Assembly (NCBI RefSeq): GCF_023336755.1
Contig: NZ_JALZWP010000019.1
Span: forward strand, 1-44,075
Direction of reading: 5' to 3'
Length of the DNA: 44,075 nucleotides
Source: Roseinatronobacter domitianus
Lineage (GTDB): Bacteria; Pseudomonadota; Alphaproteobacteria; Rhodobacterales; Rhodobacteraceae
The notes under the pieces: model-generated
The model's database searches: none
Told to the model about the DNA's origin: nothing
What the model saw: the letters and a program-made list of their open reading frames with translations, nothing else
Shown: positions 4,381-31,083 of the stretch, piece by piece
Numbering within the stretch: the stretch's first letter is position 1
Layout: each line of letters starts with the position of its first letter
Translations under genes and position numbers: made by a program

Positions 4381-5184
4381 TTAATCGCAGCGCGCGCTCA
4401 TACCTCCGTCTACGACAAGCTCGGTAGCGGTGACGAACCTCGCCTCGTCCGATACCAAGAACAACGCAGCATTGGCCGTGTCGCGTCCGTCGCCCATCCA
4501 GCCCAGCGGGATGCGCTTGACCCGCGATGCCAGAAGCGCGTCGACATCCCCACCCATGCGTTGCTCGGCCAGCCGGGTTTCCACAAGCGGCGTGTGTAAC
4601 TGTCCGGGGATTACGGTGTTCACGCGCACGCCTTTGGGCGCATATTCAACACCGACAACGCGGCTGAACTGGATCACGCCCGCCTTGGCCGCAGCATAGG
4701 CGCATTGCGCCGCACCCGTCCAACGCAGCCCGGAAACCGAGGCGATATTCACCACCGCACCGCGCCCCCGCTCTGCCATGATCGGCAAGACCGTTTGGCA
4801 GGTCAGGTAAACCGATGTCAGGTTGGAATCCACTTGTCTGCGCCACGTTTGCGCGTCCATCTCGGCGGGGCCACCGCGGGCAGAGCCGCCAACATTGTTC
4901 ACAAGGATGTCTACCGTCCCAAAGCGGTCCATGCAGGCCGCGACCATGTCTTTGACCGATGCTTGGTCGGTGACGTCGCACAGATGGGTTTCGATTTCGC
5001 CGCCCAAGTCGCGGACGCGCGCCACCGTTTCCTCCATCGTGTCGGCGCGCAAATCGACAGCGAAGACCTTGGCGCCTTCCTCTGCGAAGCGGACCGCTAT
5101 GGCGCGCCCATTCCCCCAGCCCGGCCCGACGCAGCCCGCGCCACACACAATGGCGATTTTTCCATCAAGCCGCCCCGTCATCAC
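4381..5184 (-). CDS. SDR-family NAD(P)-dependent oxidoreductase
   Basis: 267-residue classical short-chain dehydrogenase/reductase. The Rossmann glycine motif is enlarged (GAGCVGPGWGNGRA), NNVGG follows, then the catalytic Ser in NIASVSG and the YAAAK Tyr/Lys pair. The C-terminus carries the usual VDGG close. It should oxidise or reduce a secondary alcohol/ketone, probably a hydroxyacyl intermediate given its neighbours. Its start overlaps the stop of the preceding CMD-family gene by four bases (ATGA), so the two are translationally coupled. The SDR at 21152-21943 has the same long glycine loop before NGRA and may be a relative with a similar substrate. Family certain; substrate not known. 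Confidence 0.9.
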   Translation of the reverse strand: MMTGRLDGKIAIVCGAGCVGPGWGNGRAIAVRFAEEGAKVFAVDLRADTMEETVARVRDLGGEIETHLCDVTDQASVKDMVAACMDRFGTVDILVNNVGGSARGGPAEMDAQTWRRQVDSNLTSVYLTCQTVLPIMAERGRGAVVNIASVSGLRWTGAAQCAYAAAKAGVIQFSRVVGVEYAPKGVRVNTVIPGQLHTPLVETRLAEQRMGGDVDALLASRVKRIPLGWMGDGRDTANAALFLVSDEARFVTATELVVDGGMSARCD

Positions 5185-5753
5185 GATAGCTCCGGCGGGT
5201 TGCCGTCGGGCGCAGACACGCGGAAGACATTCAGCGTCATGGATATCAACGAATAATACCCCAATACACCCACCAGATCGACCAGCCTGTCGGACCCAAG
5301 AACCCGGACTGCCTCTGTATAAAGCGGGTCCGGGACGGCGCGGGTTTCAAGAATTGCAATCGCCACAGCGTGCACGATGCGCTCCTCGTCATCGGCGTAG
5401 GGTGGGGCGGCCCGCGTGCGGATCGCTTCCACCAGCTCCGGGGACAGGCCGGCTTTCAGCGCTTCTGGTTTATGCGCGAACCATTCGAATTCCGCCGACC
5501 AGTGGCGCGCCATTGTCAGGATTGCCAACTCGCTCAATCGCGGATCAAGCGACGTGTCATAGCGGCAGTAGCGCCCAAGCTCTTGTGCGCGGGCGGCCAA
5601 TTCGGGGCGGTGTAGCCAGATCGCCAAAGGTCCGCGCACACCGCCCCGCGGGCCAGATGCGATGGCCTCATGGATCTCTTGCTGGCGCGGGGAATACTGC
5701 GTCGGGTCGGGCGGCCCAAGACGCTGCGGCGGTCGGTGTTGGTCTTGTGTCAT
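5181..5753 (-). CDS. Carboxymuconolactone decarboxylase (CMD) family protein
   Basis: 190-residue all-helical protein of the CMD/AhpD-like superfamily. The core segment RLSELAILTMARHWSAEFEW fits the family's conserved helix, but the CxxC of AhpD peroxidases is absent, so it is more like the decarboxylase branch or an uncharacterised relative. The start is supported by AGAGGA 5 bases before the ATG. It heads a two-gene operon with an SDR (4-bp overlap) and is divergent from the thiolase gene across about 150 bases that must hold both promoters. The neighbouring thiolase of beta-ketoadipyl type hints at a link to beta-ketoadipate-like chemistry, but the rest of a pca pathway is not here. Exact reaction not assignable. 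Confidence 0.8.
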   Translation of the reverse strand: MTQDQHRPPQRLGPPDPTQYSPRQQEIHEAIASGPRGGVRGPLAIWLHRPELAARAQELGRYCRYDTSLDPRLSELAILTMARHWSAEFEWFAHKPEALKAGLSPELVEAIRTRAAPPYADDEERIVHAVAIAILETRAVPDPLYTEAVRVLGSDRLVDLVGVLGYYSLISMTLNVFRVSAPDGNPPELS

Positions 5754-5902
5754 CTGATCCTCTTTCTGCTTTTTAGGAGTATGACAATCTTTACGGCTGT
5801 CGAAACCAGATCAACGGTCGGGCTGCCCGAAGTGGTCGTCCGTTGCGACGGGCAGGTGTTTGGCGCAGGTTCGGGACGGCAACAAAAGTGGAACGACTTG
5901 CA

Positions 5903-7105
5903 ATGACCGATGCTTTCATCTGCGATTACACGCGCACACCCATCGGGCGCTACGGTGGCGCCCTGTCTTCTGTCAGAGCCGATGACCTTGGTGCTGTGCC
6001 GATCCGGGCACTGATCGCGCGTCATGACATCGACTGGGCCGCGCTGGACGAGGTAATCCTTGGATGTGCCAACCAAGCGGGCGAAGATAACCGCAATGTT
6101 GCACGCATGTCGGCCCTTCTGGCTGGGCTGCCCGACACCGTGCCGGGCACCACCATCAACCGTCTTTGCGGGTCAGGCATGGACGCGGTGATGACCGCAG
6201 CCCGCGCCATTCGCGCCGGCGAGATGGACATGGTTCTGGCGGGTGGCGTCGAATCCATGTCGCGCGCGCCGTTTGTGATGCCAAAGGCCGAAACGCCCTT
6301 TTCGCGCAGCGCTGAAATCCATGACACAACGATAGGCTGGCGTTTCGTAAACCCGGTGCTAAAGGCGCAATACGGTGTGCACTCAATGCCCGAGACGGCT
6401 GAGAATGTTGCCGAGGATTTCGATATTTCGCGCGCGGATCAGGATGCCTTCGCGCTTCGCTCGCAGGCCCGCGCTGCGGTCGCGCTGCAAAGTGGCCGGA
6501 TGGCGCAAGAAATCACACCTGTCAGCATTCCGCAGCGCCGGGGTGATCCGCGGATTGTGGACACAGACGAGCACCCCCGCCCGCACACCACCGCCGAAGC
6601 ATTGGCGGCGCTGAAGGCACCATTTCGCGCAGGCGGATCTGTGACCGCAGGCAATGCCTCTGGCGTCAATGATGGCGCGGCGGCGCTGATTATCGCGTCA
6701 GAAAAGGCCGCGCTGCGCCATGGATTAACCCCCATCGCACGAATATTGGGCGGTGCGACGGCGGGTGTTCCGCCCCGCATCATGGGGATCGGTCCTGCGC
6801 CTGCGTCCGAAAAACTGATGGCGCGGCTTGGGCTTTGTGCCAGCGATTTTGACGTGATCGAATTGAACGAGGCCTTCGCCAGCCAAGGTCTTGCCACCCT
6901 GCGCCGACTTGGCGTCGCGGATGATGATGACCGGGTTAATCGCAACGGCGGCGCGATTGCGCTTGGCCACCCCTTGGGCATGTCGGGCGCGCGGCTGGCA
7001 GGCACCGCCGCGCTGGAACTTGCGGTGACAGGTGGGCGGCGCGCGCTGGCCACCATGTGTATTGGTGTGGGGCAAGGGATCGCCCTCGCGCTGGAGCGGG
7101 TCTGA
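5903..7105 (+). CDS. Acetyl-CoA acetyltransferase, beta-ketoadipyl-CoA thiolase type
   Basis: 400-residue thiolase that cleaves a 3-oxoacyl-CoA with CoA to acetyl-CoA and a shortened acyl-CoA. The nucleophilic Cys is in INRLCGSGMDA, GGVESMSRAPFVM follows, the catalytic His is in GHPLGMSGAR, and the second Cys is in CIGVGQG near the C-terminus. Length and AGEDNRNVARMSALLAGLP fit the PcaF/PaaJ subgroup, which acts on 3-oxoadipyl-CoA. The ATG at 5903 is preceded by GGAA at about 9 bases; a longer in-frame start at 5843 lacks support. It is the first gene of a plus-strand run of beta-oxidation genes. Thiolase is certain, dicarboxylyl specificity is inference. Confidence 0.9.
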   Translation: MTDAFICDYTRTPIGRYGGALSSVRADDLGAVPIRALIARHDIDWAALDEVILGCANQAGEDNRNVARMSALLAGLPDTVPGTTINRLCGSGMDAVMTAARAIRAGEMDMVLAGGVESMSRAPFVMPKAETPFSRSAEIHDTTIGWRFVNPVLKAQYGVHSMPETAENVAEDFDISRADQDAFALRSQARAAVALQSGRMAQEITPVSIPQRRGDPRIVDTDEHPRPHTTAEALAALKAPFRAGGSVTAGNASGVNDGAAALIIASEKAALRHGLTPIARILGGATAGVPPRIMGIGPAPASEKLMARLGLCASDFDVIELNEAFASQGLATLRRLGVADDDDRVNRNGGAIALGHPLGMSGARLAGTAALELAVTGGRRALATMCIGVGQGIALALERV

Positions 7106-7248
7106 CAGGTCCGCCTCCAATCAAGCCTTACTTAAAGTTATGCAATCACCACATCCCCTCACTTTTCGCAGCCCAAGCTTTGCCGCGATAATGCAGGTGC
7201 AGCGGGCGGACACCTTTGGACGCCCGCGACAATAAAGGAGCAGATCAC

Positions 7249-8400
7249 GTGATATCCGGGCTTTCCCCTGAACAGACAGAACTGGCCCATGCCGTGCGGC
7301 GCTTTGCCGAAGGTGAACTGGCAGAGGGCGCTTTGGCGCGTGCCCATTCGCGCGAATATCCGTGGGACATTGCGGCGAAATTGTCGGACATGGGGATGCT
7401 TGGCATCACGATGCGGTCCGAAGACGGTGGCCTTGGTGGAACGTTGATGGATGCGGTCATTACGATTCAGGAACTGGCAATGGTCTGCCCTAAAAGCGCG
7501 GATATTGCGCAGGCGGGAAATTTCGGGCCAATCAGAACCTTTGTGGAATTCGCCTCGGAGGAGCAAAAGGACCGCTGGCTGCCCGATCTTCTGTCCGGGA
7601 AAAAGCTGATCTCGTTGGGAATGAGCGAACCGGATGCCGGTTCTGCGGTGACAGAGTTACAGACCAGCGCGCGCGAAGACGGCACGGATTACGTTCTGAA
7701 CGGGTCTAAGGTGTTTTCCACCCATAGCCCTCATGCGGACCTGTTTTTGATTTATGTGCGGTTCGGGCCGGGGCTGGACGGGATCGGTTCGGTGCTTGTG
7801 GAGCGTGGCACACCGGGGTTCACTGTCGGGCAGCCAACACCATTCATGAGCGGGGAAGAATGGTGTCCGCTGTATTTCCAGGATTGTCGCATCCCCGCCG
7901 CGAATGTTCTGCTTGGCCCCAGCGGTTTCAAGAAACAGATTTCTGGCTTCAACGTCGAACGCATCGGCAATGCATCTCGGGCGCTGGCCCTTGGTCGGCA
8001 CGCCTATGAGGTGGCGCGGCAACATGTGACCGAACGCACGCAATTCGGCCGCCCCTTATGCGAGTTTCAAGGACTGCAATGGAGTTTTGCCGAAATGATC
8101 GTGAAGCTGGAAGGCGCGCAGACCTTGTTGTATCGCGCGGCCTCTCAGGCTGATGAAAGCGGGCTTCCTACCGCTTTCGACACAGCTGTCGCCAAACTGG
8201 CCTGCAACGAAGCAGGGTTCGAGGTCGCCAATGCCGCGATGCAGGCGATGGGTGCTTATGGCTATTCGACCGAAAGCCTTGTGGAATACTGCGTCAAGCG
8301 CACGCGCGGCTGGCAGATCGCGGGGGGGTCCATCGAAATGCTCAAGAACCGCATTGCTGAGCAGGTCTTTGAGCGCCGTTTCAGCCAGCGACCTTCGTGA
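7249..8400 (+). CDS. Acyl-CoA dehydrogenase
   Basis: 383-residue FAD flavoenzyme making the 2,3-double bond in an acyl-CoA and passing electrons to ETF. SLGMSEPDAGSAVTELQT (about 122-139) is the substrate/FAD-binding signature, and RTQFGRPLCEFQ and AMQAMGAYGYS follow. The usual C-terminal catalytic Glu (YEGT position) is replaced by AGGS (about 360). A Glu at 237 in FNVERIG aligns with the alternative catalytic position known in isovaleryl- and long-chain acyl-CoA dehydrogenases, suggesting a branched or unusual substrate. The start is GTG at 7249, with AAAGGAG 8 bases upstream; an ATG at 7216 has no comparable site. The stop overlaps the next start (TGATG). Confidence 0.9.
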   Translation: MISGLSPEQTELAHAVRRFAEGELAEGALARAHSREYPWDIAAKLSDMGMLGITMRSEDGGLGGTLMDAVITIQELAMVCPKSADIAQAGNFGPIRTFVEFASEEQKDRWLPDLLSGKKLISLGMSEPDAGSAVTELQTSAREDGTDYVLNGSKVFSTHSPHADLFLIYVRFGPGLDGIGSVLVERGTPGFTVGQPTPFMSGEEWCPLYFQDCRIPAANVLLGPSGFKKQISGFNVERIGNASRALALGRHAYEVARQHVTERTQFGRPLCEFQGLQWSFAEMIVKLEGAQTLLYRAASQADESGLPTAFDTAVAKLACNEAGFEVANAAMQAMGAYGYSTESLVEYCVKRTRGWQIAGGSIEMLKNRIAEQVFERRFSQRPS

Positions 8401-10466
8401 TGGGTGGCAGCAATTGGCAAAAGGCGCTGCTGCATCCGGACAGCGTTGCTTTGGTGGGGGTCTCTGATGATCCCGCAAAGACCTCGGGTCGCCCGCTAAA
8501 ATTTCTGCGCGCGGCTGGCTTTGCAGGTGATATCTTCGCCGTAAACCCCACGCGGGCCACGGTGCAGGGCGAAACAGCTTATGCGACCCTTTCGGACCTG
8601 CCGCATGTGCCGGATCATGCTTTCATCCTGACCGGCGCGGATCGCGCGCTGGACGCGCTGGAAGAATGTGAGGCGTTGGGGGTTCCGGTCGCAACCGTCC
8701 TGGCGACAGGCTTTGCCGAGGCCGGCGCCACAGGCAATGCCAACCTTGCACGCATCGATGCCTTGATCGCGCGCGGAAAGCTACGCGTTCTGGGGCCATC
8801 CTCTATCGGGTTGGCCAACCTGCGTCATGGCATGACACTGACCGCGAACGCGGCCTTTGCCGAACCCGAACTGCCGAAGGGGGGGCTCTTTGTGGCCTCG
8901 CATAGCGGCAGTCTGATCGGCGCACTGATGTCGCGCGGCAAACGCAAGGGACTTGGCTTCGCCGGGCTTGTCTCTGTCGGCGGAGAGCGCGACCTGTCCA
9001 TCGGGGATGTCTGCATGGCGGCGCTGGACGACCCCAATGTAACGGGGTTTTTGCTGTTTCTGGAACATATGGGCCACGCGGACAGGTTACGAGCCTTTGC
9101 CCAAGAGGCTGCACGCCGGGGCAAACCCGTCGCCGCCTTCAAACTGGGAAGATCCGAGGAAGCGGCTGAGCTTGCGCAGTCGCACACGGGGTCACTTGCC
9201 GGGGCGGATGAGGTTGCGGACGAATTCCTGCGCGCCTGCGGTATTGCGCGGGTCACGGCCTTCGAAGCGCTTCTGGAGGTCGCGCCATTGCTGCGTCGGG
9301 TCGCGCCGGTAACGACCCCGCGTCGGGGGCGCGTCGGTGTTGTAACGACAACAGGCGGCGGGGCCGCGATGGCGGTCGATCAGCTTGCGGTTCACGGCGT
9401 CGAAATCACCGCACCGTCTATCGAAACACGCGCGCGGCTTGCCGATCTGGGCATTGATGCAGGCGACACGCGCATCCTTGACCTGACATTGGCAGGCACG
9501 CGCTATGATGTCATGCGGGGCGCGATAGAGGTGTTGCGCGCTGCCCCCGAGTTTGACCTGGTGCTGGTCTGCGTTGGTTCTTCGGCCAGGTTCAATCCTG
9601 ACCTTGCGGTTCAGCCGGCGCTTGATCTGATCGACCTGCCCGGCCACCCGTTCGCGGTCTTTCTGGTGCCCGATGCACCCGGCGCGGTTCAGCGGCTGGC
9701 GCGCGCGGATGTGCCGGTGTTCGAAGACCCTGAAACCTGCGCGGATGCCGTGGCTGCGGCGCTTCACCGTCTTGTCCCGAACCTGCCCGCGTCTGTTATG
9801 CGCTGCGCCGATGGTTCTGCGCGGTATCTGGACGAGGCAGAGGCCTATCAACGGCTGCGTGATGTGCCGGTGGCAGATTGGCTTGCTATGGATGTTACCG
9901 CGCCGCTGCCTGACCTGTCGTTTCCGTATCCGGTCGTGGCCAAGGTTCTGGACGTGGCGATCTTGCACAAAAGCGATGCGGGTGGTGTGGTTATCGGGAT
10001 AGATGGCCCCGACGCATTGGCGCAAGCGGTCACTGAAATTTGCGAGAACGTGCCGCGCGAATTGGACGGGCGTCAGGTCACGCGCGTGTTGGTTCAGCAG
10101 ATGCGCAAGGGTGTGGGCGAAGTCCTGATCGGGATGCGCCATGACCCGGATGTGGGTCCGATTGTCGTGTTGGCTGCGGGCGGCGTTTTCACAGAGATTT
10201 ATCGCGACGTTGTGATGCGCCTTGCGCCGGTCGACCTGGACACGGCTAGGCACATGGTCGACTCGCTGAAGCTGACGCAGATCCTTGACGGCGCGCGAGG
10301 ACATCCGAAAGGTGATCTGGAGGCGTTGGCGCAAGCGGTTGTTGCCGTGTCGAAATTCGCACTCGATCACGATATCATCGAGGCAGAGATCAACCCGGTG
10401 ATCGTCCTGCCGCGTGGGCACGGTGTGGTCGCAGTAGACGCGCTAATTTCCACGAGAGCGGGATGA
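8400..10466 (+). CDS. Fused ADP-forming acyl-CoA ligase (acetate--CoA ligase family), copy 1
   Basis: 688-residue single-chain acyl-CoA synthetase (NDP-forming). In order: CoA-binding Rossmann domain with VALVGVSDDPAKTSGRPLKF, two succinyl-CoA-ligase-like domains with SHSGSLIGALMSRGKRKG and the likely phospho-His in SHTGSLAGAD, then an ATP-grasp domain with FPYPVVAKVL and ILHKSDAGGVVIG. It activates a carboxylate with ATP and CoA through acyl-phosphate and phospho-His, giving ADP. The start overlaps the dehydrogenase stop (TGATG), and its own stop overlaps the following hydratase/dehydrogenase start (ATGA). The ATP-grasp N-terminal part is short compared with copy 2. A second full paralogue follows one gene later. 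The substrate is unknown, probably the compound imported by the TctABC system. Confidence 0.88.
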   Translation: MGGSNWQKALLHPDSVALVGVSDDPAKTSGRPLKFLRAAGFAGDIFAVNPTRATVQGETAYATLSDLPHVPDHAFILTGADRALDALEECEALGVPVATVLATGFAEAGATGNANLARIDALIARGKLRVLGPSSIGLANLRHGMTLTANAAFAEPELPKGGLFVASHSGSLIGALMSRGKRKGLGFAGLVSVGGERDLSIGDVCMAALDDPNVTGFLLFLEHMGHADRLRAFAQEAARRGKPVAAFKLGRSEEAAELAQSHTGSLAGADEVADEFLRACGIARVTAFEALLEVAPLLRRVAPVTTPRRGRVGVVTTTGGGAAMAVDQLAVHGVEITAPSIETRARLADLGIDAGDTRILDLTLAGTRYDVMRGAIEVLRAAPEFDLVLVCVGSSARFNPDLAVQPALDLIDLPGHPFAVFLVPDAPGAVQRLARADVPVFEDPETCADAVAAALHRLVPNLPASVMRCADGSARYLDEAEAYQRLRDVPVADWLAMDVTAPLPDLSFPYPVVAKVLDVAILHKSDAGGVVIGIDGPDALAQAVTEICENVPRELDGRQVTRVLVQQMRKGVGEVLIGMRHDPDVGPIVVLAAGGVFTEIYRDVVMRLAPVDLDTARHMVDSLKLTQILDGARGHPKGDLEALAQAVVAVSKFALDHDIIEAEINPVIVLPRGHGVVAVDALISTRAG

Positions 10467-12178
10467 CGGGACAGGTCTTCGTTCAAAGGGACGATCATAT
10501 CGCGGTGCTGGTTATCAGTAATCCGCCAGTGAATGCAGGGTCGCATCATATCCGCAAGGCGCTTTTGGCGGCAATCGCCGAAGTTGAAGCCAACCCGCGA
10601 CTGACCGGCGCGGTGCTGATTGGGGATGGTAACAGCTTTATTGCCGGGTCGGATCTGAAGGAGTTCGATCTTCGTCTTGATCCGCCGCAGACCCCGCAGG
10701 TGATCGCGGCACTGGAATCTACCACCAAACCTTTCGTGGCGGCGCTGCATGGCGCCGCGCTGGGCGGTGGATATGAAATTGCGCTTGGCTGTGATGCCCG
10801 GATCGCGGCCCCCGGCACGGTGGTCGGCCTGCCAGAGGTGACGCTTGGGATCATTCCCGGCGCGGGCGGCGCGCAAAAACTGCCCCGGCTGGTCGGTAAA
10901 CCCAAGGCGCTGCGGCATATCTTTTTTGCAGAACGCGCCGCCGCGCGGGGCAACCCGGATCGCAGCGCGAAACCGGTCAATGTCGCGCAGTTGGGTGTTG
11001 TTGGCAGCGGCACCATGGGTGCAGGGATCGCAACGGCGATCTTGCAATCCGGCAAGCCGGTGATCCTGATCGACACCAATGCAGATGCGTTGGAAAAAGG
11101 CTGCCGCCGAATAGTTCAGGCGCTTGAAAGGGCTGTAACGCGCGGCAAGATGACGGCAGAAGCCGCTGGTCAGGCGCAGGCCCGGTTGACCAGCGCAACC
11201 AATCTTGAAGCGCTTGCGCCTTGCGATGTGGTGATCGAAGCGGTCTTTGAAGACCTGGACTTGAAGGCGGATCTTTTTGGTCGTCTTGATGCCATTTTAG
11301 GGTCTGACGCAATCCTTGCCAGCAACACCTCCTATCTGGATATTGATGCGATGGCAGCGGCCACCACTCGACCGGACCGGGTGATTGGCCTTCATTTCTT
11401 TAGTCCTGCCCATGTCATGAAACTGCTCGAAGTTGTGCGCGGCAACGCCAGCAGCGACAGCGCTATGGCCACGGGCTTTGCGCTGGCCCGTATGTTGGGC
11501 AAGCAGCCTGTCGAAGCGGCCAATGCGTTTGGCTTCATTGGCAACCGGATTTATGCGGCCTATCGCGCGGCCTGCGAATTCATGCTGGAAGATGGCGCAT
11601 TTCCACATGAAATTGATGCGGCCCTTGAAGCGTTTGGCTTTGCGATGGGGCCATGTGCCGTGGCCGATATGTCCGGGCTGGATATTGCGTGGCATATGCG
11701 TCGTCAGACGGCGGCGCAGCGGTCTGATGCTGACCGCTATGTGGACATCCCCGACCGGCTTTGCGAGGCGGGACGTTTCGGCCAAAAGACCGGTGCGGGC
11801 TATTATCGCTATGATGATGGCACCAAGGCGCGCGACCCGTGGGTCGAGGATCTGATCCGTGCTGTCTCTCAGGAAAAAGGTATCATGCGGACACCGTTTT
11901 CGGCACAGGATATCCAGACGCGCGCTTTGGCCGCTATTGTGAACGAAGCGGCGTTGGTCGTTGCCGAAGGTGTCGCCATCAGGCCAGAGGATATCGACGT
12001 TGTGCTGGTCAACGGCTTTGGCTTTCCGCGCTGGCGGGGTGGTCCCGTTCATTGGGCGCGGCAGCAAGATGCGGATGCGCTGAGTGCAGCCTGCGCCGCG
12101 TTCGCTGTGGCAGCAGGACCGGGGCGCAAAACCGGCGATTTCAGAGTTCTGGAACTTGACGCAAAGGACAAGGCATGA
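10463..12178 (+). CDS. Bifunctional enoyl-CoA hydratase/3-hydroxyacyl-CoA dehydrogenase with an apparent internal deletion
   Basis: 571 residues, about 125 shorter than usual FadB/FadJ-type fusions. Residues 1-150 are a crotonase domain with both likely catalytic Glu (GGGYEIAL, E105; GLPEVTLGIIPGAGG, E125). The NAD-binding domain begins at about 174 with LGVVGSGTMGAGIA and is followed by the dehydrogenase C-terminal domains (FFSPAHVMKLLEVV, NAFGFIGNRI). At residues 148-156 the sequence passes straight from KPKAL, inside the crotonase fold, to RHIFFAERAAAR, which in relatives lies just before the NAD domain. The C-terminal helices of the crotonase and the linker are thus missing with the frame kept. 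The dehydrogenase half should work; hydratase activity is doubtful. Overlaps both neighbours by four bases. Confidence 0.87.
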   Translation: MTGQVFVQRDDHIAVLVISNPPVNAGSHHIRKALLAAIAEVEANPRLTGAVLIGDGNSFIAGSDLKEFDLRLDPPQTPQVIAALESTTKPFVAALHGAALGGGYEIALGCDARIAAPGTVVGLPEVTLGIIPGAGGAQKLPRLVGKPKALRHIFFAERAAARGNPDRSAKPVNVAQLGVVGSGTMGAGIATAILQSGKPVILIDTNADALEKGCRRIVQALERAVTRGKMTAEAAGQAQARLTSATNLEALAPCDVVIEAVFEDLDLKADLFGRLDAILGSDAILASNTSYLDIDAMAAATTRPDRVIGLHFFSPAHVMKLLEVVRGNASSDSAMATGFALARMLGKQPVEAANAFGFIGNRIYAAYRAACEFMLEDGAFPHEIDAALEAFGFAMGPCAVADMSGLDIAWHMRRQTAAQRSDADRYVDIPDRLCEAGRFGQKTGAGYYRYDDGTKARDPWVEDLIRAVSQEKGIMRTPFSAQDIQTRALAAIVNEAALVVAEGVAIRPEDIDVVLVNGFGFPRWRGGPVHWARQQDADALSAACAAFAVAAGPGRKTGDFRVLELDAKDKA

Positions 12179-14250: not shown

Positions 14251-14256
14251 GCGCGT

Positions 14257-14700: not shown

Positions 14701-14833
14701 GACAAGCTAACCAGACAGAGCAAAGAGCCCAACCATTTGTTATGCTCGCCAGCGTTTTTAACTGTTGTTCGATAGCGGCGATGCCAAGAAGATTGCCCGA
14801 TAAGGTAAAGCGCCTGACCACGGGGAGGGGACA

Positions 14834-16797: not shown

Positions 16798-16812
16798 GGC
16801 AACAAGACGGGC

Positions 16813-16836: not shown

Positions 16837-16901
16837 AGTGGCCGCCCTAAAGGCCGCATCAAGCCGCCCTAGCGCGGGAAATGACGGAGGAGGAGAAGAC
16901 C

Positions 16902-17855
16902 ATGAAAACGATCATTTGCGCTGCACTTGGCGCGACACTTAGCATGACGGCCGCTTGGGCGCAGGAGGATTTCCCAAGCAAGCCGGTCACGATCATTGTG
17001 CCTTATGGCACCGGCGGGTCCACAGATACGACAGCACGCGCCATCGCAATCGAGCTGGAAAAGATCTGGGAGCAGCCGATTGTCATTCAGAACCAGCCTG
17101 GCGCCGGTTCGATGATCGGCACAACCGCCATGACGCAGGCGGACCCCGATGGGCACACCTTGCTGATCAACACGGCCGCGATTTCAACGGCCCCTGCCAT
17201 ACAGGGCGATCTGCAATACGATCCCGAAGAGGATGTCACACCCATCTCTTTGTTGGTCACAAGCCCCTATGTTCTGGTGGGCGGCGCCAATGTGCAATCC
17301 ACCGACTTCAGCGGCTTCCTGCAAGAGGCTCAGGAACGGCCGATGTTCCTGGGCACCGCCGGCCCAGGCAGCTCCAGCCATTTCATGTCTGAACTGCTTA
17401 TCAGTGCGGCAGACCTGCCTGCGGACGTGATCCACTTTTCGGGTGGTGGCGAAGCGCAGACGAACCTGATGGGCGGCCATTCTGACACCTACATCTCCAC
17501 GACCGCAAGCGTTATGCCTTACGTCAATGACGGACGGGTCAAGGCGTTGGCGGTTCTGGCACCTGAACGCTTCGCGCTTTTGCCCGACATCCAGTCGAGC
17601 GGCGAGGCAGGCATTTCGGGTGTCGAGATTGACGGCTGGGTCGCATTGTTTGGCCCGGGCGGCATGGACCCGGCTTTGGCTGAACAGATCAACGCAGATT
17701 TTGCCAAAGCGATGGCGACAGACTCGATGCAAGAAATGCTGGAACGGAACTATGCTGTCGCGGGTGATCTAAGCCCGTCGGAGTTCCGCACAATCTACCT
17801 GCGCGACATGCAGACCTGGCAGGACTTGGCCGAGGCGCGCGGCATCGGGCAATAA
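16902..17855 (+). CDS. tctC: Tripartite tricarboxylate transporter substrate-binding protein TctC
   Basis: 317-residue periplasmic binding protein of the Bug/TctC family. A signal peptide ends at about AAWAQ-EDFPSKP, followed by the family start PVTIIVPYGTGGSTDTTARA and then NQPGAGSMIGTTAMTQADPDG. It captures the carboxylate for TctAB. The ATG at 16902 is preceded by GGAGGAGAAG and begins a good signal sequence; an earlier ATG at 16881 lies inside the ribosome-site region. It is followed by a strong terminator, so it ends the tctBAC transcript. Confidence 0.93.
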   Translation: MKTIICAALGATLSMTAAWAQEDFPSKPVTIIVPYGTGGSTDTTARAIAIELEKIWEQPIVIQNQPGAGSMIGTTAMTQADPDGHTLLINTAAISTAPAIQGDLQYDPEEDVTPISLLVTSPYVLVGGANVQSTDFSGFLQEAQERPMFLGTAGPGSSSHFMSELLISAADLPADVIHFSGGGEAQTNLMGGHSDTYISTTASVMPYVNDGRVKALAVLAPERFALLPDIQSSGEAGISGVEIDGWVALFGPGGMDPALAEQINADFAKAMATDSMQEMLERNYAVAGDLSPSEFRTIYLRDMQTWQDLAEARGIGQ

Positions 17856-17877
17856 TCCCAAGCTGAAGACAACTTGG

Positions 17878-17906
17878 AAAACCGGCCCCAAGCGGGCCGG
17901 TTTTTT
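17878..17906. terminator. Strong rho-independent terminator between convergent genes
   Basis: Perfect 11-bp stem AAAACCGGCCC (17878-17888) with GGGCCGGTTTT (17894-17904), loop of five bases, followed by TT on the plus strand. The A-run on the other arm makes it usable in both directions, for tctC and for the hydroxyacid dehydrogenase. Confidence 0.9.
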
Positions 17907-17907
17907 G

Positions 17908-18900
17908 TTAGGCGCTCAACACGCGGGCGGGCTTGCCATCCAGCCAGCCATCAAGGTTTTCGACCGTCTCGCCATAAAACGCCGCAAAGGTTTCGCGGAC
18001 GCTGTAGCCAAGATGTGGTGTCAGAACTGTGCGCGGGGTGCGGCGCAAGGGGTGTTCCGCAGGCATGGGCTCTTGGTCATAAACATCTATCCCCGCGCCT
18101 GCGATCCTGCCCGTCGCCAAGGCTTGGATCAATGCGCTTTCATCCACCAGTGGCCCGCGAGCGGTGTTTATCAGGTAGGCATCCGGTTTCATGCGGGCGA
18201 TGTCATCTGCCCCGATAAGGCTGCGCGTCGTCGGCCCAAGCACCAAATGCAGAGAGATAACATCGGCGCTGCTGAAAAGCGTGTTTTTGTCGACATATTG
18301 CGCGCCGCTGTCATCCGCGCGTTCTGGCGTCAGGTTGGGACTCCAGGCGATGACGTTCATGCCGAATGCCTTGGCAATCAGGGCCATCCGCGCCCCAAGC
18401 CTGCCAAGCCCCACGATCCCAAGGGTTCGACCGTAAAGCGCATGGCCCAATCGCGTCTGCCATGCGCCGTCCCGCATTGCAGCAGATTCGTCGGGAATGT
18501 GCCGCATCAAGCCGATGATAAGACCCCAGGCCAGTTCAACGGTGGCATAGACGCCATTTCCGCTGCTGCCCGTCGTCATCACCGGTATGCCAAGCTCGGC
18601 CGCGGTGGTGCTGTCTAGCGTCCGATTGCGCCGCCCGGTGGCGGAAATCGCCTTGAGGTTGGGCAATTGACGTATCACCTCACCGGGGAAATCGCTGCGT
18701 TCCCGCATCAGGCAGATGGCATCATAGGGCGCAAGTTCACTTGCCAAATCCTCGAGCGCGATGGGATCGCGCAGGAACGTGACCTCTGCACGGTCCTTCA
18801 GGATCGACCAGTCGGCAAGGCGCTCTGCAACGCCCATGTAATCGTCCAGCACGGCGATGCGCGCGGGGCGGTCTTTCGGCAAGGCGCGATAGTCGGTCAT
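17908..18900 (-). CDS. D-2-hydroxyacid dehydrogenase
   Basis: 330-residue NAD-dependent D-isomer 2-hydroxyacid dehydrogenase. The dinucleotide loop is in GIVGLGRLGARMA. The catalytic set is present: Arg in NTARGPLVDE, Glu in DVYDQEPMP, His in LTPHLGYS. It interconverts a 2-oxo acid and a D-2-hydroxy acid. The start overlaps by four bases the stop of the AbrB-family membrane protein gene, so the pair is one operon. That operon is divergent from the LysR gene, which is a likely regulator. The substrate may be related to the acid imported by TctABC, which is inference. Confidence 0.9.
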   Translation of the reverse strand: MTDYRALPKDRPARIAVLDDYMGVAERLADWSILKDRAEVTFLRDPIALEDLASELAPYDAICLMRERSDFPGEVIRQLPNLKAISATGRRNRTLDSTTAAELGIPVMTTGSSGNGVYATVELAWGLIIGLMRHIPDESAAMRDGAWQTRLGHALYGRTLGIVGLGRLGARMALIAKAFGMNVIAWSPNLTPERADDSGAQYVDKNTLFSSADVISLHLVLGPTTRSLIGADDIARMKPDAYLINTARGPLVDESALIQALATGRIAGAGIDVYDQEPMPAEHPLRRTPRTVLTPHLGYSVRETFAAFYGETVENLDGWLDGKPARVLSA

Positions 18901-20018
18901 TTGTCGTTTTCTCCGTTGGTTTTGCGCTGTTCATGGCGCGTGATCAGCCGGACGATCCACGGGATATTCGGCATGAAAATGAAGATACGCACCAAGTGGA
19001 ACGTCGTGATCAGGATGAAGTTCTGTTCCAGGAACTTGGCCGTCAGCGCCATTTCCACGACACCGCCGGGCGCTGCGCCCAAAACCATGGTGCGCCAGTC
19101 CACGCCTGTCAGGGCAGCAATACCAAGCGCGCTGATAATGCAGGCCCCAAGGGTCAATACCGCCGACAGCGCGCTGGTCAGTGTCAGCCGCCAGGCAGAT
19201 GACAGAATTTCACGCCGAAAGATTGCCCCTAGCCAAGTGCCAAGCACGATCTGCGCCAGCGCCAGGATCGCTGGTGGGAACGGGGCAAGCCCCTGACCGC
19301 TGGCGGCAAGAGCGGCTGCGGCGGTCAGGGGGCCAAGGAAATTCGGGTTCGGGACGCGCAAGAACCGGAATACTTGCGCCGCTGCAAGGCCGATCACGGC
19401 CAGCATGATGATGTGCCAAGGGTCGGACATTGCAAGCGTGACCGGCTCTCGCCCGCCTTCAATGGCATAAAGCGAAAAGGGCAGGATAAGCACCACCGCG
19501 GCAAGCCGGAAGGTCTGCGAGAAGATTACCGGCACAGTCGGCACGCCCGCCGCTGCGGCCATTGTCGCGGCTTCGACCGGGCTGGTTGGCATTGCCGACA
19601 TAAAGGCCTGCGCAAGGCCCTGACCGGTCAATCGCGTCATTAGCAGCGCCACAAAGAAAATGCTGACCCCCGTTGTCAGAGCGGTGCCGACAATCACGGG
19701 CGCGAAGGCTATCAGCATCTCCAGTGCCTCTGGCGAAAACGCAAGGCCCACCTGTGTGGCGACGACCACCTGACCAAAGGCACGCAGCTTCGTGGGCACG
19801 ACAAGGCGCGGCGCTGGTCCCATGAACACCGCCGCAGTAAACACCAGTGGCCCGGTCATCCAAGGCAGCGGGGCGCCAATGCGCTCAAATACCCAGCCCG
19901 CGCAGGCGGACAACACGAAAAGCACCGTCAGTCCGACAATGTCCCGCCATTTCCCTGTCGGGGGCGGTTGCGTTTTCTTGTCTGAGAGCGGTGAGCGCAT
20001 CCGAACCTGATCGGCCAA
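18897..20018 (-). CDS. AbrB-family membrane protein (ammonia monooxygenase-like regulator family)
   Basis: 373-residue integral membrane protein of the AbrB/DUF2 family, about ten hydrophobic segments. GAPLPWMTGPLVFTAAV near the N-terminus and the repeated G-rich helix in the second half (ILALAQIVLGTWLGAIF, LGAAPGGVVEMALTA) are typical. Family members are often next to TTT transporters and are thought to be transporters, with little experimental evidence. The start used is TTG at 20018 with GGTGGAG just upstream; an ATG at 20000 is an alternative. ATGA overlap with the D-2-hydroxyacid dehydrogenase gene. Confidence 0.8.
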   Translation of the reverse strand: MADQVRMRSPLSDKKTQPPPTGKWRDIVGLTVLFVLSACAGWVFERIGAPLPWMTGPLVFTAAVFMGPAPRLVVPTKLRAFGQVVVATQVGLAFSPEALEMLIAFAPVIVGTALTTGVSIFFVALLMTRLTGQGLAQAFMSAMPTSPVEAATMAAAAGVPTVPVIFSQTFRLAAVVLILPFSLYAIEGGREPVTLAMSDPWHIIMLAVIGLAAAQVFRFLRVPNPNFLGPLTAAAALAASGQGLAPFPPAILALAQIVLGTWLGAIFRREILSSAWRLTLTSALSAVLTLGACIISALGIAALTGVDWRTMVLGAAPGGVVEMALTAKFLEQNFILITTFHLVRIFIFMPNIPWIVRLITRHEQRKTNGENDK

Positions 20019-20122
20019 GATTCTCCACCATTGGCCACCTTGACGATTATCTTGTCCACAGACTAGCCTAACGGACGGTCTTGTAGACCGGCCTTTTTAT
20101 CGCGCAAGGATAACCAAAGATC

Positions 20123-21049
20123 ATGCAACGCCGCATCAGCTTGCCGCTCAATCCGCTCCGATCCTTCGCTGTCGCGTCGCGGCACAAGACCTTTACTGCC
20201 GCAGCGCAGGAACTGGGCGTAAGCCAAGTCGCCATTAGCCGGCAAATCGCGATCCTGGAAGATTTCCTGGATGTCAGCTTGTTCGAGCGCGGCGTGCGCT
20301 CTGCAAAGCTGACCGAGGTTGGACGTGCCTTCGGACTGGAGATTGCGGGCCTGTTCGATGATCTGGAACGCGCCACTCAAAGGATGATCAGCCGCGAAAC
20401 CGAAGGAACGGTGAACCTGCGCGTGCATCCGACTGTTGCGCATCACTGGCTGATGCCAAAGCTTCTGGATTTCACGGCGCGCTACCCGGATATCCGGGTC
20501 CGCTTCGACACGCGGGTCGAACCGCTGGATTTCAGGGGCACGCATCTGGACGTCGCCTTGCAGCTTGGCAGCGGCGACTGGCGCGACACACGCAGCCGCA
20601 AGCTATGGGACGAACAGGTCGATGTGGTCTGTAATCAGGCCTATCTTGACAAGATCGGCGGCATTTCCAAGCCCGAGGACGTGACCAAGGGCGAGTTGCT
20701 TCATTCGCGCTACCGCCGCCGCGCGTGGGAGTTTTGGGCCAAGGCAGTAGGCGTGGATATTGATGTCAACAGCGGCACCGATTTCGAAACGTCACTTCTC
20801 AGCTTTTCGGCAGCGGAACAGGGTTTTGGCCTTGCCATCGGACAATTGGGCCTGCTGGACGACATTATCGCCGAGGGGCGGCTGGTGCGCCCGCTTGGGA
20901 TGCGTATCCCGACCGGAGCATCCTTCTACATCATTTGGCCCTCGACCGTCTCGGTCAGCGTCAAGACCAAGCGGTTCGTAGACTGGCTGCTGTATCAAGT
21001 GGGGCAGCCGCATCAGTTCTTCGCCGCTGTTTCAGATGCAGAGCCCTGA
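20123..21049 (+). CDS. LysR-family transcriptional regulator (GcvA-like)
   Basis: 308-residue LTTR. The N-terminal winged helix reads LRSFAVASRHKTFTAAAQEL then GVSQVAISRQIAILEDFLDV and LFERG, with the proline/asparagine-led start typical of the GcvA group. The effector domain begins at about residue 95. It is divergent from the AbrB/hydroxyacid dehydrogenase operon, separated by about 100 bases that should contain its binding site, and lies directly upstream of the SDR-PrpD-crotonase operon. It probably senses the substrate of this island. Family certain. Confidence 0.92.
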   Translation: MQRRISLPLNPLRSFAVASRHKTFTAAAQELGVSQVAISRQIAILEDFLDVSLFERGVRSAKLTEVGRAFGLEIAGLFDDLERATQRMISRETEGTVNLRVHPTVAHHWLMPKLLDFTARYPDIRVRFDTRVEPLDFRGTHLDVALQLGSGDWRDTRSRKLWDEQVDVVCNQAYLDKIGGISKPEDVTKGELLHSRYRRRAWEFWAKAVGVDIDVNSGTDFETSLLSFSAAEQGFGLAIGQLGLLDDIIAEGRLVRPLGMRIPTGASFYIIWPSTVSVSVKTKRFVDWLLYQVGQPHQFFAAVSDAEP

Positions 21050-21151
21050 TTGGATCAAACTCAGGATTTGCCGAGCCTGATGTCTGCTCAGGATATAGCG
21101 GCGAATATGGCTGCTAACCTGATCTCGACTTAGAAAAAGGCGGTGTAGGTC

Positions 21152-21943
21152 ATGGGCGAGCTTCTGCGCGACAAGATTGCAATCATTACCGGGGCAGGAC
21201 AACAACCGGGTGCCACGCCCGGCAATGGGCGCGCGACTGCGATCCGCTTCGCGCAAGAAGGTGCCACCTGTGTGTTGGTTGATATCAACGGCGATTGGGC
21301 GGAAGAAACGCGCGAGATGATCGGCGGCGACCGCTCTATTGTTGTTGCGGGCGACATCACAAAAGAGACTACATGTCAGCACATCGTGCAGCAGACATTG
21401 GATCGGTTTGGCCGGATTGACGTTCTGCACAACAATGTCGGCCAGTCCAAGGGAGATCGCGCCACGCCCGACCTTGATGTGGAGGCGTGGGATGCCATCA
21501 TGACCCTGAACCTCAAGGCGATGTTCATGCTGGTAAAGGCAGCGTTGCCATCAATGCGCGACACGGGCGCCGGGTCGATCGTCAACATCTCCTCGACCGC
21601 GTCCTTTTCGATGCGCCCGACGGTGGCCTACAAGACCTCCAAAGGGGCGATTAACACCTTCACACAGCACCTTGCCGCCGAAAACGCGCGGTTTGGCGTG
21701 CGGGCCAATGCGATCTTGCCGGGGCTGATCGACACGCCGATGGCGATTGAGCGGCGCGCGGTTGAAAGCGGTCGCCCGCGCGAGGATATTCGCGCCGAAC
21801 GCAACGCCCTCGTCCCGATGGGTCACATGGGAGAGGCATGGGACGTCGCGAACGCAGCCGTGTTCCTTGCGTCGGACGAAGCAAAATATGTCACTGGCGC
21901 GTTGCTGCCCGTCGATGGCGGCTTGCTTGTAAAGCGAGGCTAG
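21152..21943 (+). CDS. SDR-family oxidoreductase
   Basis: 263-residue short-chain dehydrogenase with an enlarged glycine loop (TGAGQQPGATPGNGRATA), NNVG, catalytic Ser in NISSTASFS, and YKTSK as the Tyr/Lys pair. VDGG is near the C-terminus. The loop resembles that of the SDR at 4381-5184, so the two may share a substrate class. First gene of a tight plus-strand operon with the MmgE/PrpD gene (three bases between stop and start) and the crotonase gene. Substrate not assignable. Confidence 0.9.
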   Translation: MGELLRDKIAIITGAGQQPGATPGNGRATAIRFAQEGATCVLVDINGDWAEETREMIGGDRSIVVAGDITKETTCQHIVQQTLDRFGRIDVLHNNVGQSKGDRATPDLDVEAWDAIMTLNLKAMFMLVKAALPSMRDTGAGSIVNISSTASFSMRPTVAYKTSKGAINTFTQHLAAENARFGVRANAILPGLIDTPMAIERRAVESGRPREDIRAERNALVPMGHMGEAWDVANAAVFLASDEAKYVTGALLPVDGGLLVKRG

Positions 21944-21946
21944 GAA

Positions 21947-23314
21947 ATGACCGATAACCCTTTGATCCAACTCGCACAGGCGGCACATGCTTGGCAGACT
22001 CGCGATGTGCCTGTCGCGGTCGAACATGACACGCGCCGTGCGGTGCTGGACTGGTTCGGGTCGATGCTTCCCGGCTGTCTTGAGGGTCCGGCAGTTGCCT
22101 TGTCGCATGCTGTGGCGTCCGAACAGGGGCAAGGTGCGGCGGTGTCCTATGTGGATGGTCAGCGCGGGAGCGCGCGCCACGCGGCGCTTTTGAACGGAAC
22201 GGCAAGCCACACCGCGGAGTTCGACGATATTTTCCGTGACGGCGGCTATCATCCCGGAAGCCCAACGATTTCAGCGGCGCTTGCCGTCGCACAGGCCGAA
22301 GGCGCGTCGGCGGATGCGTTTCGCCGGGCCGTTATCGGGGGCTACGAGGTCGGATGCCGGATCGCAATGGCGCTTCAGCCAAGCCATTACCGGGACTGGC
22401 ACATCACCGCCACCGTGGGCACAATGGGCGCGGCTGTCTCCACCGCGATGATAAAGGGCTGCACCGCAGAGCAAATCGGCAACAGCATCGCGATTGCCAG
22501 CAGCTTTGCCGGGGGGCACCAGGAAAATTTGCAGGGCAAGGGGCAGACCAAGCCGCTTCACTGTGGACATGCCGCCGAGGCAGGCGTTCTGGCCGGATTG
22601 GCGGCAGCAGCCGGCGTTACCGGATCGCGTGACAGTCTGCATGCCGACCATGGCTACGCGGCCGCAAGCAGCGACACCACGGGGAACTGGGGTATGGCGC
22701 TTGCAGGTCTTGGCGACTGGACGCCGATCTCGCGGATGACGTTCAAGAACCACGGGTGTTGCGGCCATATTTTCCCAACACTCGACGGGTTGCGGGTTTT
22801 ACAGGCACAGCATGCCTTCGGCCCTGCGGATATTGATGGGATAGAGGTGGAGGGATATGGCCCAACCGCGTCGATCTGCGACAGACTGGACGTGACGACG
22901 CCACAAGATGCGCGCTTCAGTGTGCAATATTGCGTGGCCGCGCTGTTGTATATGGGCGCAGTGCGCTTGGCGGCCTTCACGCCAGAGGCCTTGGCGCGTG
23001 CCGATCTGCGCGCCTTCATGCCCAAGGTTCGCGTTACCGAAGATCCGGAAATCGCAGCGGCTTATCCAAGCCGCAGGCAAGCGCGGCTTCGCGTGACCCT
23101 GAAGGATGGCAGCGTTCTGAAGCATTTCCAGCCCACGCGAAAAGGCGACCCGGATGACCCGCTGACCGATGCCGAGCTTGTCGCCAAATTCGACGAATTG
23201 GCCGGGCTGGCCGTGACGCAAGACGACGCTGCGCGGCTTAGGCGTTGTGTCATGGCCACCGATGAACTGCCCGGAAGCGTGCCACTTCACCCCGCAAACC
23301 AATCCGCCGCATGA
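21947..23314 (+). CDS. MmgE/PrpD family protein
   Basis: 455 residues, the normal length of the MmgE/PrpD family, which includes 2-methylcitrate dehydratase, cis-aconitate decarboxylase and iminodisuccinate epimerase. Seen are NGTASHTAEFDDIFRDGGYH (the conserved H..D region), SPTISAALAVAQ, KPLHCGHAAEAGVLAGLAA and FKNHGCCGHIFPTLDGL. The reaction is a dehydration, decarboxylation or isomerisation of a small di- or tricarboxylate. prpB and prpC are not adjacent, so methylcitrate-cycle function is unlikely. Its last four bases (ATGA) overlap the crotonase start. Confidence 0.9.
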   Translation: MTDNPLIQLAQAAHAWQTRDVPVAVEHDTRRAVLDWFGSMLPGCLEGPAVALSHAVASEQGQGAAVSYVDGQRGSARHAALLNGTASHTAEFDDIFRDGGYHPGSPTISAALAVAQAEGASADAFRRAVIGGYEVGCRIAMALQPSHYRDWHITATVGTMGAAVSTAMIKGCTAEQIGNSIAIASSFAGGHQENLQGKGQTKPLHCGHAAEAGVLAGLAAAAGVTGSRDSLHADHGYAAASSDTTGNWGMALAGLGDWTPISRMTFKNHGCCGHIFPTLDGLRVLQAQHAFGPADIDGIEVEGYGPTASICDRLDVTTPQDARFSVQYCVAALLYMGAVRLAAFTPEALARADLRAFMPKVRVTEDPEIAAAYPSRRQARLRVTLKDGSVLKHFQPTRKGDPDDPLTDAELVAKFDELAGLAVTQDDAARLRRCVMATDELPGSVPLHPANQSAA

Positions 23315-24165
23315 GCCAAATTAACCAGCATCAGGACGTCCCGAAGATGGAAGAAACCAAATCCTCACACGGCTTTGCGGCCGATTTCATTGAAACCGAA
23401 CTGCGTGGGACGGTAGCCATCATCCGCCTGAACCGACCCGAACTGCGCAATGCGATCAACGACCAGATGCGGCAGGAGCTTATTTCTGCCTTCGAATGGG
23501 CCGACCGGGATGCGACTATCCGCGCTGTGATCCTGACAGGCGCCGGCAAGGGCTTTTGCTCCGGCGGCGATATCGGGGGTATGCGCGACCGGCTGGAGGC
23601 TCCGCAAGGGGACGTTGCCTTCAATGGCTGGAAACGCCAGAAACAAACGCATCGCGGCGTTGCGGTCATCCATGGCTGCACCAAGCCGGTGATCGCGGCA
23701 ATGAATGGCTCGGCCTTCGGCCTTGGCCTCGACATGGCAATGGCGTGCGATTTCATCGTTGCGGTCGAGGGCGCAACCATGTCGATGAGTTTTCTCAAGC
23801 GCGGGTTGGTGTCTGACGGCGGCGGCATGTATTTTCTACCGCGCCGTGTCGGTCTGCCATGCGCCAAGGAGCTGATCCTGTCGGGCCGCGTTGTGGCGGC
23901 AGATGAAGCCCTGTCGATCGGGTTGGTGGACCGCGTGGTTGCACCTGACACCTTGATCGATGCCGCCTGCACATGGGCCGAAGAGTTGACCCAAGGCTCG
24001 GCGGCATCGGTTGCCTTGACCAAGTCGATCCTAGACAAGACCTTCGAAAGCACGGATGAGGAAATCTTTGCCCTTGGCCGACAAGCGCAGGCGATCTGCT
24101 ACACCACGACCGACCATCGCGCCTCGGTCGAGGCGTTCCTTGCCAAAATGGGCAACAAGGACTAG
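23311..24165 (+). CDS. Enoyl-CoA hydratase/isomerase family protein with atypical active site
   Basis: 284-residue crotonase-fold protein. The oxyanion-hole segments FCSGGDIGGM and GSAFGLGLDMAMACDF are present. The two hydratase Glu are not: the first position is Asp (GLGLDMAM), and the second lies in SFLKRGLVSDGGGMYFLPRR, which has no Glu but carries an Asp like the LIPDCGG of PaaG-type isomerases. It is therefore more likely an isomerase or another crotonase reaction than a plain hydratase. The ATG at 23311 overlaps the PrpD stop; an internal ATG at 23347 is possible. Last gene of the SDR-PrpD-crotonase operon. Confidence 0.88.
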   Translation: MSQINQHQDVPKMEETKSSHGFAADFIETELRGTVAIIRLNRPELRNAINDQMRQELISAFEWADRDATIRAVILTGAGKGFCSGGDIGGMRDRLEAPQGDVAFNGWKRQKQTHRGVAVIHGCTKPVIAAMNGSAFGLGLDMAMACDFIVAVEGATMSMSFLKRGLVSDGGGMYFLPRRVGLPCAKELILSGRVVAADEALSIGLVDRVVAPDTLIDAACTWAEELTQGSAASVALTKSILDKTFESTDEEIFALGRQAQAICYTTTDHRASVEAFLAKMGNKD

Positions 24166-31075: not shown

Positions 31076-31083
31076 GGCGCGGG

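Follow-up and report, generated by a model that had tools for sequence, protein, structure and literature searches.

What acid does a compact run of catabolic genes in Roseinatronobacter domitianus serve, and do these genes belong together at all? The genes lie on contig NZ_JALZWP010000019.1 of a 3.36-Mb assembly (GCF_023336755.1), and the entire contig, 44,075 nucleotides, is the window analyzed here. The catabolic island comprises 17 genes, arranged in six runs that are each on a single strand (4381-24165; Table 1). An earlier note on this DNA had counted about sixteen genes in adjacent tight operons; the number needs correction, but the tight packing is borne out by the six runs and by 4-base overlaps joining the acyl-CoA dehydrogenase (ACAD), the ADP-forming CoA ligase LIG1, the fusion protein that includes a 3-hydroxyacyl-CoA dehydrogenase (HCDH) and the second ligase LIG2, as well as MmgE/PrpD (hereafter PrpD) to a crotonase, the short-chain dehydrogenase (SDR) SDR1 to a CMD-family protein, and a 2-hydroxyacid dehydrogenase to an AbrB protein. 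The families named in that note, including a TTT importer and a beta-ketoadipyl-type thiolase, are all found at their coordinates by Pfam with scores above the gathering cut-offs, and the thiolase scores 685.4 bits against TIGR02430 (cut-off 597).

The island is a genuine gene set of patchy inheritance and probably one regulon, as indicated by co-conservation, by genome-wide co-occurrence of ACAD and PrpD, and by a LysR-type box found at some promoters; to this extent the earlier proposal, a set of genes for acid catabolism with a TTT importer of its own, is upheld. Tentatively, and with rather less than even confidence, we read it from its sequences as a regulon under LysR control, by which a racemic 2-substituted succinate would be used aerobically. 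The basis of this reading is observed: the gene content, the co-inheritance, the box at some promoters, the catalytic residues and a PrpD lineage apart from the other Cupriavidus necator PrpDs of the tree. From these we infer all of the reactions, their order and the substrate class, a 1,4-dicarboxylate with an alkyl, aryl or carboxyalkyl arm.

Co-inheritance and a candidate promoter box

The gene-neighborhood comparison suggested in the earlier note was made with 85 loci that carry an ACAD of at least about 60% identity, drawn from a search of plasmids and a single scan of genomes: 7 are on plasmids (66 plasmid records had a match, 14 of them at 60% or more, and 7 of those 14 were included), and 78 belong to the top 80 among 417 candidates. 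Island genes lying no more than about 10 kb from ACAD were counted by tblastn (35% identity and half coverage), and 34 random 20-kb stretches from two genomes (19 and 15) served as the control; of the 85 loci, which are not independent of one another, 63 have full flanks. The genes proved co-conserved, contrary to the outcome that the earlier note had named as refuting its proposal. LIG1 was found at 71 loci (70 at 45% identity or more, the safer count because of cross-hits by LIG2), PrpD at 43, HCDH at 39, LysR at 33, thiolase at 24, TctC at 20, TctA at 19, TctB at 18, the thioesterase at 17, SDR1, SDR2, LIG2 (at 45% identity) and the 2-hydroxyacid dehydrogenase (near the edge of most flanks) at 14 each, CMD at 13, the separate crotonase at 6 and AbrB at 5. 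In the random stretches, thiolase, SDR1 and SDR2 each appeared in 2/34 and TctA in 1/34, while all remaining island genes, including LIG1, PrpD and HCDH, appeared in 0/34. Two features affect these counts: SDR1 and SDR2 are 38% identical and can thus cross-hit at 35%, and the AbrB, LysR, SDR2, PrpD and crotonase genes of the window lie more than 10 kb from ACAD, so that their counts are too low for any locus arranged in the same way. HCDH is present at 22 of the 24 loci that carry the thiolase.

In Martelella, the gene order is the same from ACAD rightwards to the end of the stretch, with the thiolase not adjacent; in a same-genus genome the island order is the same and the compared stretch is without LIG1 and SDR1. 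Thus, LIG1 can be absent. SDR1 and CMD, at 14 and 13 of the 85 loci, may be accessories. The distribution is patchy, since such an ACAD occurs in 2 of 35 sampled genomes of the genus (85% and 61% identity). The core was found in Alpha-, Beta- and Gammaproteobacteria, with ACAD and ligase also in a Rhodococcus, and partly on plasmids, from which we expect a substrate that is probably widespread in soils and waters.

We examined co-occurrence in 385 genomes of the class, including the window's own, with thresholds of E ≤1e-110 for ACAD and E ≤1e-75 for this kind of PrpD, chosen once other comparisons had shown a gap separating close hits from distant ones, and with at most four candidates scored per genome. 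The ACAD orthologue occurs in 17 genomes and the PrpD kind in 10 (16/384 and 9/384 with the window's own genome excluded). All 9 PrpD-positive genomes fall within the 16 ACAD-positive ones (p = 2.5e-14 over 384 genomes, a value that takes no account of genome size or kinship); the two genes are on different contigs in 5 of these 9, and 7 of the 16 ACAD genomes are without such a PrpD.

We considered that the island might be a loose neighborhood, in which two or more independent pathways (ACAD-LIG1-HCDH and PrpD-crotonase-LIG2-2-hydroxyacid dehydrogenase) share an importer and a regulator. Consistent with this idea, two Roseomonas-type plasmids (Roseomonas, Pseudoroseomonas) carry PrpD-crotonase-LIG2 with the 2-hydroxyacid dehydrogenase and TctC and no ACAD nearby, and Sinorhizobium, also with no ACAD nearby, carries PrpD-crotonase-LIG2 with a CoA transferase, PcaF, HCDH, TTT and AbrB genes; elsewhere, ACAD and LIG1 are found with aldehyde dehydrogenase, 3-hydroxyisobutyrate-dehydrogenase-like, hydrolase and metallo-beta-lactamase-fold genes. 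However, ACAD and PrpD co-occur genome-wide even when on different contigs, and the promoter box precedes both SDR2-PrpD-crotonase and the thiolase. We regard such a loose neighborhood as unlikely.

That box is a palindrome, CCTRA-N7-TYAGG with T-N11-A, which precedes SDR2 without a mismatch in 4 of 4 genomes. Scored with a seed from the SDR2 promoter alone against 71 control promoters, it gave p values of 4.5e-5 for the thiolase (n=5), 2e-4 for TctB (n=9), 0.011 for LysR (n=4) and 0.012 for ACAD (n=11), values that are optimistic because the compared genomes are related. In the window itself, SDR2 scores 10 of 10, and the thiolase and LysR promoters score 8, a level reached by 8.5% of control promoters, while the ACAD and TctB promoters score 7 against a control mean of 6.7. 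The box is clear before SDR2, the thiolase and TctB (in relatives) and weak before ACAD and LysR; a shuffle test of it is circular, because the consensus was drawn from the same sequences. On sequence grounds, some island promoters probably share a candidate LysR-type box and the runs are probably co-regulated. The box is also a candidate inducer box for a biosensor.

Catalytic residues and the PrpD lineage

The residues of ACAD suggest an active, perhaps branch-tolerant dehydrogenase and not a desulfinase. It is without the glutamate of the MCAD position, with AGGS in place of EGTS, and has Glu248 (numbering from 7216) in an NxER motif at the isovaleryl-CoA dehydrogenase position; we take these two positions to be those of the catalytic base in known ACADs. 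Asp96 stands where the desulfinase has Arg84 (numbering taken from the alignment), an arginine that presumably has a role in desulfination, and both Glu248 and Asp96 are invariant in 9 of 9 aligned rows. The best solved matches are 5ol2, titled just acyl-CoA dehydrogenase, and the desulfinase 5af7. We rejected an assignment as 3-sulfinopropionyl-CoA desulfinase (Acd), the subject of the top NCBIfam match, NF042439, in view of the score (279 bits against a cut-off of 600) and the replacement of Arg84. ACAD, the ligases and the fusion protein all fall below every NCBIfam cut-off among the best 25 families listed.

In the tree made here, PrpD falls in a lineage apart from the other PrpDs of C. 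necator that were included. The 44 proteins compared are that of the window, 33 proteins of chosen loci and 10 of the 11 other C. necator PrpDs (L133 was removed by a filter); one clade of 29, the window's and 28 from relatives, has support of 100/99 and excludes all 10 C. necator proteins, several of these reference branches being very long. For four of the 29, there is no ACAD near the gene. His88, Glu91, His102, Tyr148, His152, Lys202 and Lys267 are invariant in 29/29, and they match, second base included, the list for (S)-(R)-methylsuccinate isomerase given in PMC12290011 (His88, Glu91, His102, Tyr148, His152, Lys202 and Lys266), with the last lysine at 267 instead of 266. As the reference for that enzyme we took the C. 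necator locus L127 to be the itaconate/methylsuccinate cluster, because it has CoA-transferase, PrpD, ACAD, MaoC-type and lyase-type genes together. Despite the same residues, the window's PrpD is probably outside the methylsuccinate isomerase lineage. Most MmgE/PrpD homologues are uncharacterized, according to PMC12290011; the clade defines one lineage with partner enzymes and a predicted role as 2-substituted succinate epimerase. C. necator A5-1 (G060) itself has 12 MmgE/PrpD matches, many adjoining TctC, ACAD or CoA-transferase-like genes, a large unexplored group of small-acid pathways.

Among the remaining enzymes, Cys and GHPLG mark a thiolase, SHTG a ligase of the ADP-forming type, YxxxK an SDR, and Glu or a PaaG-like Asp a crotonase; the state of each motif is given in Table 1. 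The thiolase probably starts at 5903 rather than 5843, and the genome's second thiolase of the 3-oxoadipyl-CoA family sits in a paa operon. LIG1 and LIG2 are 37% identical. The separate crotonase has Asp and Phe at the hydratase-glutamate positions. TctA, TctB and TctC are all present, each above its Pfam cut-off. TIGR03082, a model for a duplicated membrane domain, is matched by the AbrB protein, which is thus not a DNA-binding regulator. The ECH/HCDH fusion has 571 residues, compared to 681-683 in six relatives (L013, L020, L021, L022, L023 and L026) and 581-607 in three more distant ones (L015, L017 and L018): about 111 residues are lost in frame from the second half of the crotonase domain, with both hydratase glutamates kept and the HCDH half conserved in the alignment. 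This loss could reflect an error of assembly, a lesion or a change that is tolerated. In the Agrobacterium and Sphingobium fusions (L015 and L018) it is the HCDH half, not the crotonase half, that looks degenerate.

A possible route and its rivals

If the substrate is a 2-substituted succinate, TctABC would import the acid and PrpD would epimerize C2 by a two-base mechanism (His102 and Tyr148), making both enantiomers usable. LIG1, LIG2 or both would form the CoA thioester, spending ATP, and ACAD would desaturate it; the fusion protein and the separate crotonase, perhaps with the SDRs, would then carry out hydration and 3-hydroxyacyl-CoA dehydrogenation to a 3-oxoacyl-CoA, which the PcaF-family thiolase would cleave to succinyl-CoA and acetyl-CoA or another acyl-CoA, while the thioesterase would release stalled CoA. 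The earlier suggestion of a di-acid degraded to acetyl-CoA fits such a scheme. In its favor, at the tentative level stated above, are the thiolase family, the residues and clade of PrpD, the confinement of this PrpD to a subset of ACAD genomes, the promoter box, and a gene annotated as a DcaP-family porin that adjoins the module in Acinetobacter; porins of this family have a role with dicarboxylates.

Several observations weigh against a 2-substituted succinate. Activation at C4 would yield a tertiary alcohol, blocked at HCDH and thiolase, so that CoA would have to be on C1 or on the arm. The hydratase domain of the window is truncated, and its own pathway may thus be impaired. PrpD is found at 43/85 ACAD loci, although the flanks of about 10 kb stop short of the distance at which it lies in the window, and its occurrence with crotonase and LIG2 without ACAD in Roseomonas, Pseudoroseomonas and Sinorhizobium means that it may serve a different step. 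Five ACAD-linked PrpDs (L018, L057, L081, L090 and L096) are outside the clade, and 0/5 of these have Tyr at position 148. Finally, the reference itself is imperfect, in that the neighbors of the L127 PrpD score below cut-off with each of three models (mesaconate CoA-transferase, RipB/Ich and RipC/Ccl), and that another C. necator locus, L132, shows much the same company of genes, with both PrpDs outside the clade.

The same thiolase, together with HCDH, is expected of a variant adipate-type pathway, in which a straight-chain dicarboxylate of at least six carbons would be activated by an ADP-forming ligase and shortened by beta-oxidation to 3-oxoadipyl-CoA for cleavage by PcaF, with PrpD, the SDRs, CMD and the 2-hydroxyacid dehydrogenase as side branches. 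The porin in Acinetobacter speaks for this as well, and in Acinetobacter ANC 3813 the module follows succinate-semialdehyde dehydrogenase-like and lactonase-like genes (both below family cut-offs), a pair that could turn a lactone into a di-acid. In addition, random barcode transposon sequencing (RB-TnSeq) in Ralstonia links an ACAD with a LysR neighbor to adipate (PMC12543098). However, this pathway leaves unexplained a lineage-specific PrpD that tracks ACAD, and no CoA transferase family was found among the island proteins by Pfam. We consider it rather unlikely. On a plasmid of Acinetobacter sp. LoGeW2-3 (L014 and L124), an ACAD-MFS-ACAD-ligase-HCDH module occurs twice with the same protein accessions; the annotation of one copy splits PrpD into two pieces, and that of the other shows it whole.

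A benzylsuccinate-like route would place CoA on C1 of an aryl- or alkyl-methyl-succinate, with PrpD as an added epimerase, and proceed through ACAD, a hydratase, the SDRs as dehydrogenase and the thiolase to an acyl-CoA and succinyl-CoA. ACAD, crotonases, two SDRs and a thiolase do occur in this single island, and an annotated CoA transferase adjoins PrpD in Sinorhizobium. This route appears improbable, since SDR1 is at 14/85 loci only (SDR2 is beyond the flanks in the window's arrangement), the island proteins are without a CoA transferase family by Pfam, and the best solved matches of ACAD are those given above.

We also thought of a C7 tricarboxylate, 3-carboxyadipate (butane-1,2,4-tricarboxylate) or a close relative, used by a route not described before, because it is the smallest single substrate we could conceive that fits both the PrpD and the PcaF signatures. 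The tricarboxylate importer would take it up, PrpD would epimerize its succinate part and a ligase would attach CoA to the propionate arm; the thioester would be converted to 4-carboxy-3-oxoadipyl-CoA by ACAD, hydratase and HCDH and then, by loss of CO2, spontaneous or aided by CMD, to 3-oxoadipyl-CoA, which PcaF would split into succinyl-CoA and acetyl-CoA. We hold this to be very improbable.

The partner genes vary across loci, as though a common core were fed by varied front ends. An FMO-like flavin monooxygenase gene (~590 aa) is found at five ACAD loci (L057, L058, L060, L063 and L081), some of which also hold alpha/beta hydrolase, 3-hydroxyisobutyrate-dehydrogenase-like and aldehyde dehydrogenase genes, and these loci possibly represent a cyclic-ketone front end. 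A family of ~126 aa (L058:8593-8970) occurs at 13 loci, often adjoining an alpha/beta hydrolase; Pfam gave no match for the one member scanned.

Table 1. Genes of the island and candidate boxes between them (positions in the window)
Feature	Position	Strand	Evidence and remarks
SDR1, short-chain dehydrogenase	4381..5184	-	Pfam; YxxxK intact; PDB 5jc8 homologue, 364 bits
CMD-family protein	5181..5753	-	Pfam; single Cys
LysR-type box, CMD/thiolase gap (candidate)	5806..5822		8/10 positions; placed from distance to 5903 start
3-oxoadipyl-CoA thiolase (PcaF family)	5903..7105	+	TIGR02430; Cys109, GHPLG, Cys406 (numbering from 5843)
Weak LysR-type box before ACAD (candidate)	7126..7142		7/10, strict seed; placed from distance
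Acyl-CoA dehydrogenase (ACAD)	7249..8400	+	Pfam; Glu248 (numbering from 7216)
LIG1, ADP-forming CoA ligase	8397..10466	+	Pfam; SHTG (His263)
ECH/HCDH fusion, 571 aa	10463..12178	+	Pfam; alignment
LIG2, ADP-forming CoA ligase	12175..14250	+	Pfam; SHTG (His261)
4HBT/PaaI-type thioesterase	14257..14700	-	Pfam
LysR-type box, thioesterase/TctB gap (candidate)	14728..14744		7/10 in window (strict seed), 7-9 in relatives; placed from distance
TctB, TTT small permease	14834..15283	+	Pfam
TctA, TTT large permease	15283..16797	+	Pfam
TctC, TTT binding protein	16881..17855	+	Pfam; solved homologues incl. 6hke, 2qpq, 2f5x, 5oei
D-2-hydroxyacid dehydrogenase family	17908..18900	-	Pfam
AbrB-duplication membrane protein	18897..20018	-	PF05145; TIGR03082
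LysR-type box, AbrB/LysR gap (candidate)	20067..20083		8/10; not conserved in every relative; placed from distance
LysR-type regulator	20123..21049	+	Pfam; 85% identity to same-genus orthologue
LysR-type box before SDR2 (candidate)	21076..21092		perfect CCTGA-N7-TCAGG
SDR2, short-chain dehydrogenase	21152..21943	+	Pfam; YxxxK intact
MmgE/PrpD	21947..23314	+	Pfam; methylsuccinate-isomerase residues H88 E91 H102 Y148 H152 K202 K267
Separate crotonase	23311..24165	+	Pfam; both hydratase glutamates absent; PaaG-like Asp (LVSDGGG)

To the right of the island, an amine-oxidase-like flavoprotein and a ChrR-type cupin (24334-26003) have no match beside the same-genus island and thus probably do not belong to it; the 85 loci stop short of this pair. 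Further on are a sugar-type ABC importer, a mannosylglycerate-hydrolase-like glycosidase and a LacI regulator (26281-33579), which may serve a compatible solute, and, near the contig end, a phage-type integrase and a DUF3987 protein (39301-43978), likely a mobile element.

Comparison with known systems

We found no paper in the open-access literature that assigns this gene set to a substrate, and in this respect the earlier note agrees with our search. Its claim that the set fits no known pathway goes too far: the core amounts to standard beta-oxidation with a 3-oxoadipyl-CoA thiolase as its last enzyme, and the pairing of PrpD with ACAD has a precedent in methylsuccinate use, as described in PMC12290011. 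Of the earlier reading, the catabolic island with its importer is thus supported and the claim about pathways, as worded, is not; the island is also modular. Two other candidates were set aside: the Variovorax 3,3'-thiodipropionate cluster, whose genes differ in the part of PMC6370202 available, and the anaerobic auxin (iaa) operon, which has ACAD in common and no further match in the part of PMC8360864 available.

The itaconate/methylsuccinate cluster, ict-ich-ccl with mcd and msi (PMC12290011 and PMC9875883), resembles the island in having an MmgE/PrpD epimerase whose catalytic residues agree with those of the island's PrpD, alongside an ACAD and a CoA-activating enzyme. In contrast to that cluster, the island proteins are without the CoA-transferase III, MaoC and CitE families (Ict, Ich and Ccl) by Pfam, and because these three core genes are missing we set this identity aside. 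The tree and the ACAD base position agree: the presumed C. necator cluster has a PrpD outside the island clade and an ACAD that is 25% identical to the island's and keeps the MCAD-position Glu (EGTSE), which the island's does not.

The bbs operon for benzylsuccinate, whose paper is cited in PMC8360864, shares with the island an ACAD, a crotonase, two SDRs and a thiolase, and it acts on a 2-substituted succinate, as predicted for the island, but the island has an HCDH fusion and ADP-forming ligases and is without a CoA transferase. Adipate and dicarboxylate beta-oxidation (dca, and the RB-TnSeq sets in PMC12543098) likewise uses an ACAD, a hydratase, an HCDH and a 3-oxoadipyl-CoA thiolase, whereas the island has two ADP-forming ligases in place of a CoA transferase and, in addition, a TTT importer and PrpD. 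The chemistry is thus a recombination of known parts, which resembles the methylsuccinate, adipate and benzylsuccinate routes and matches none of them.

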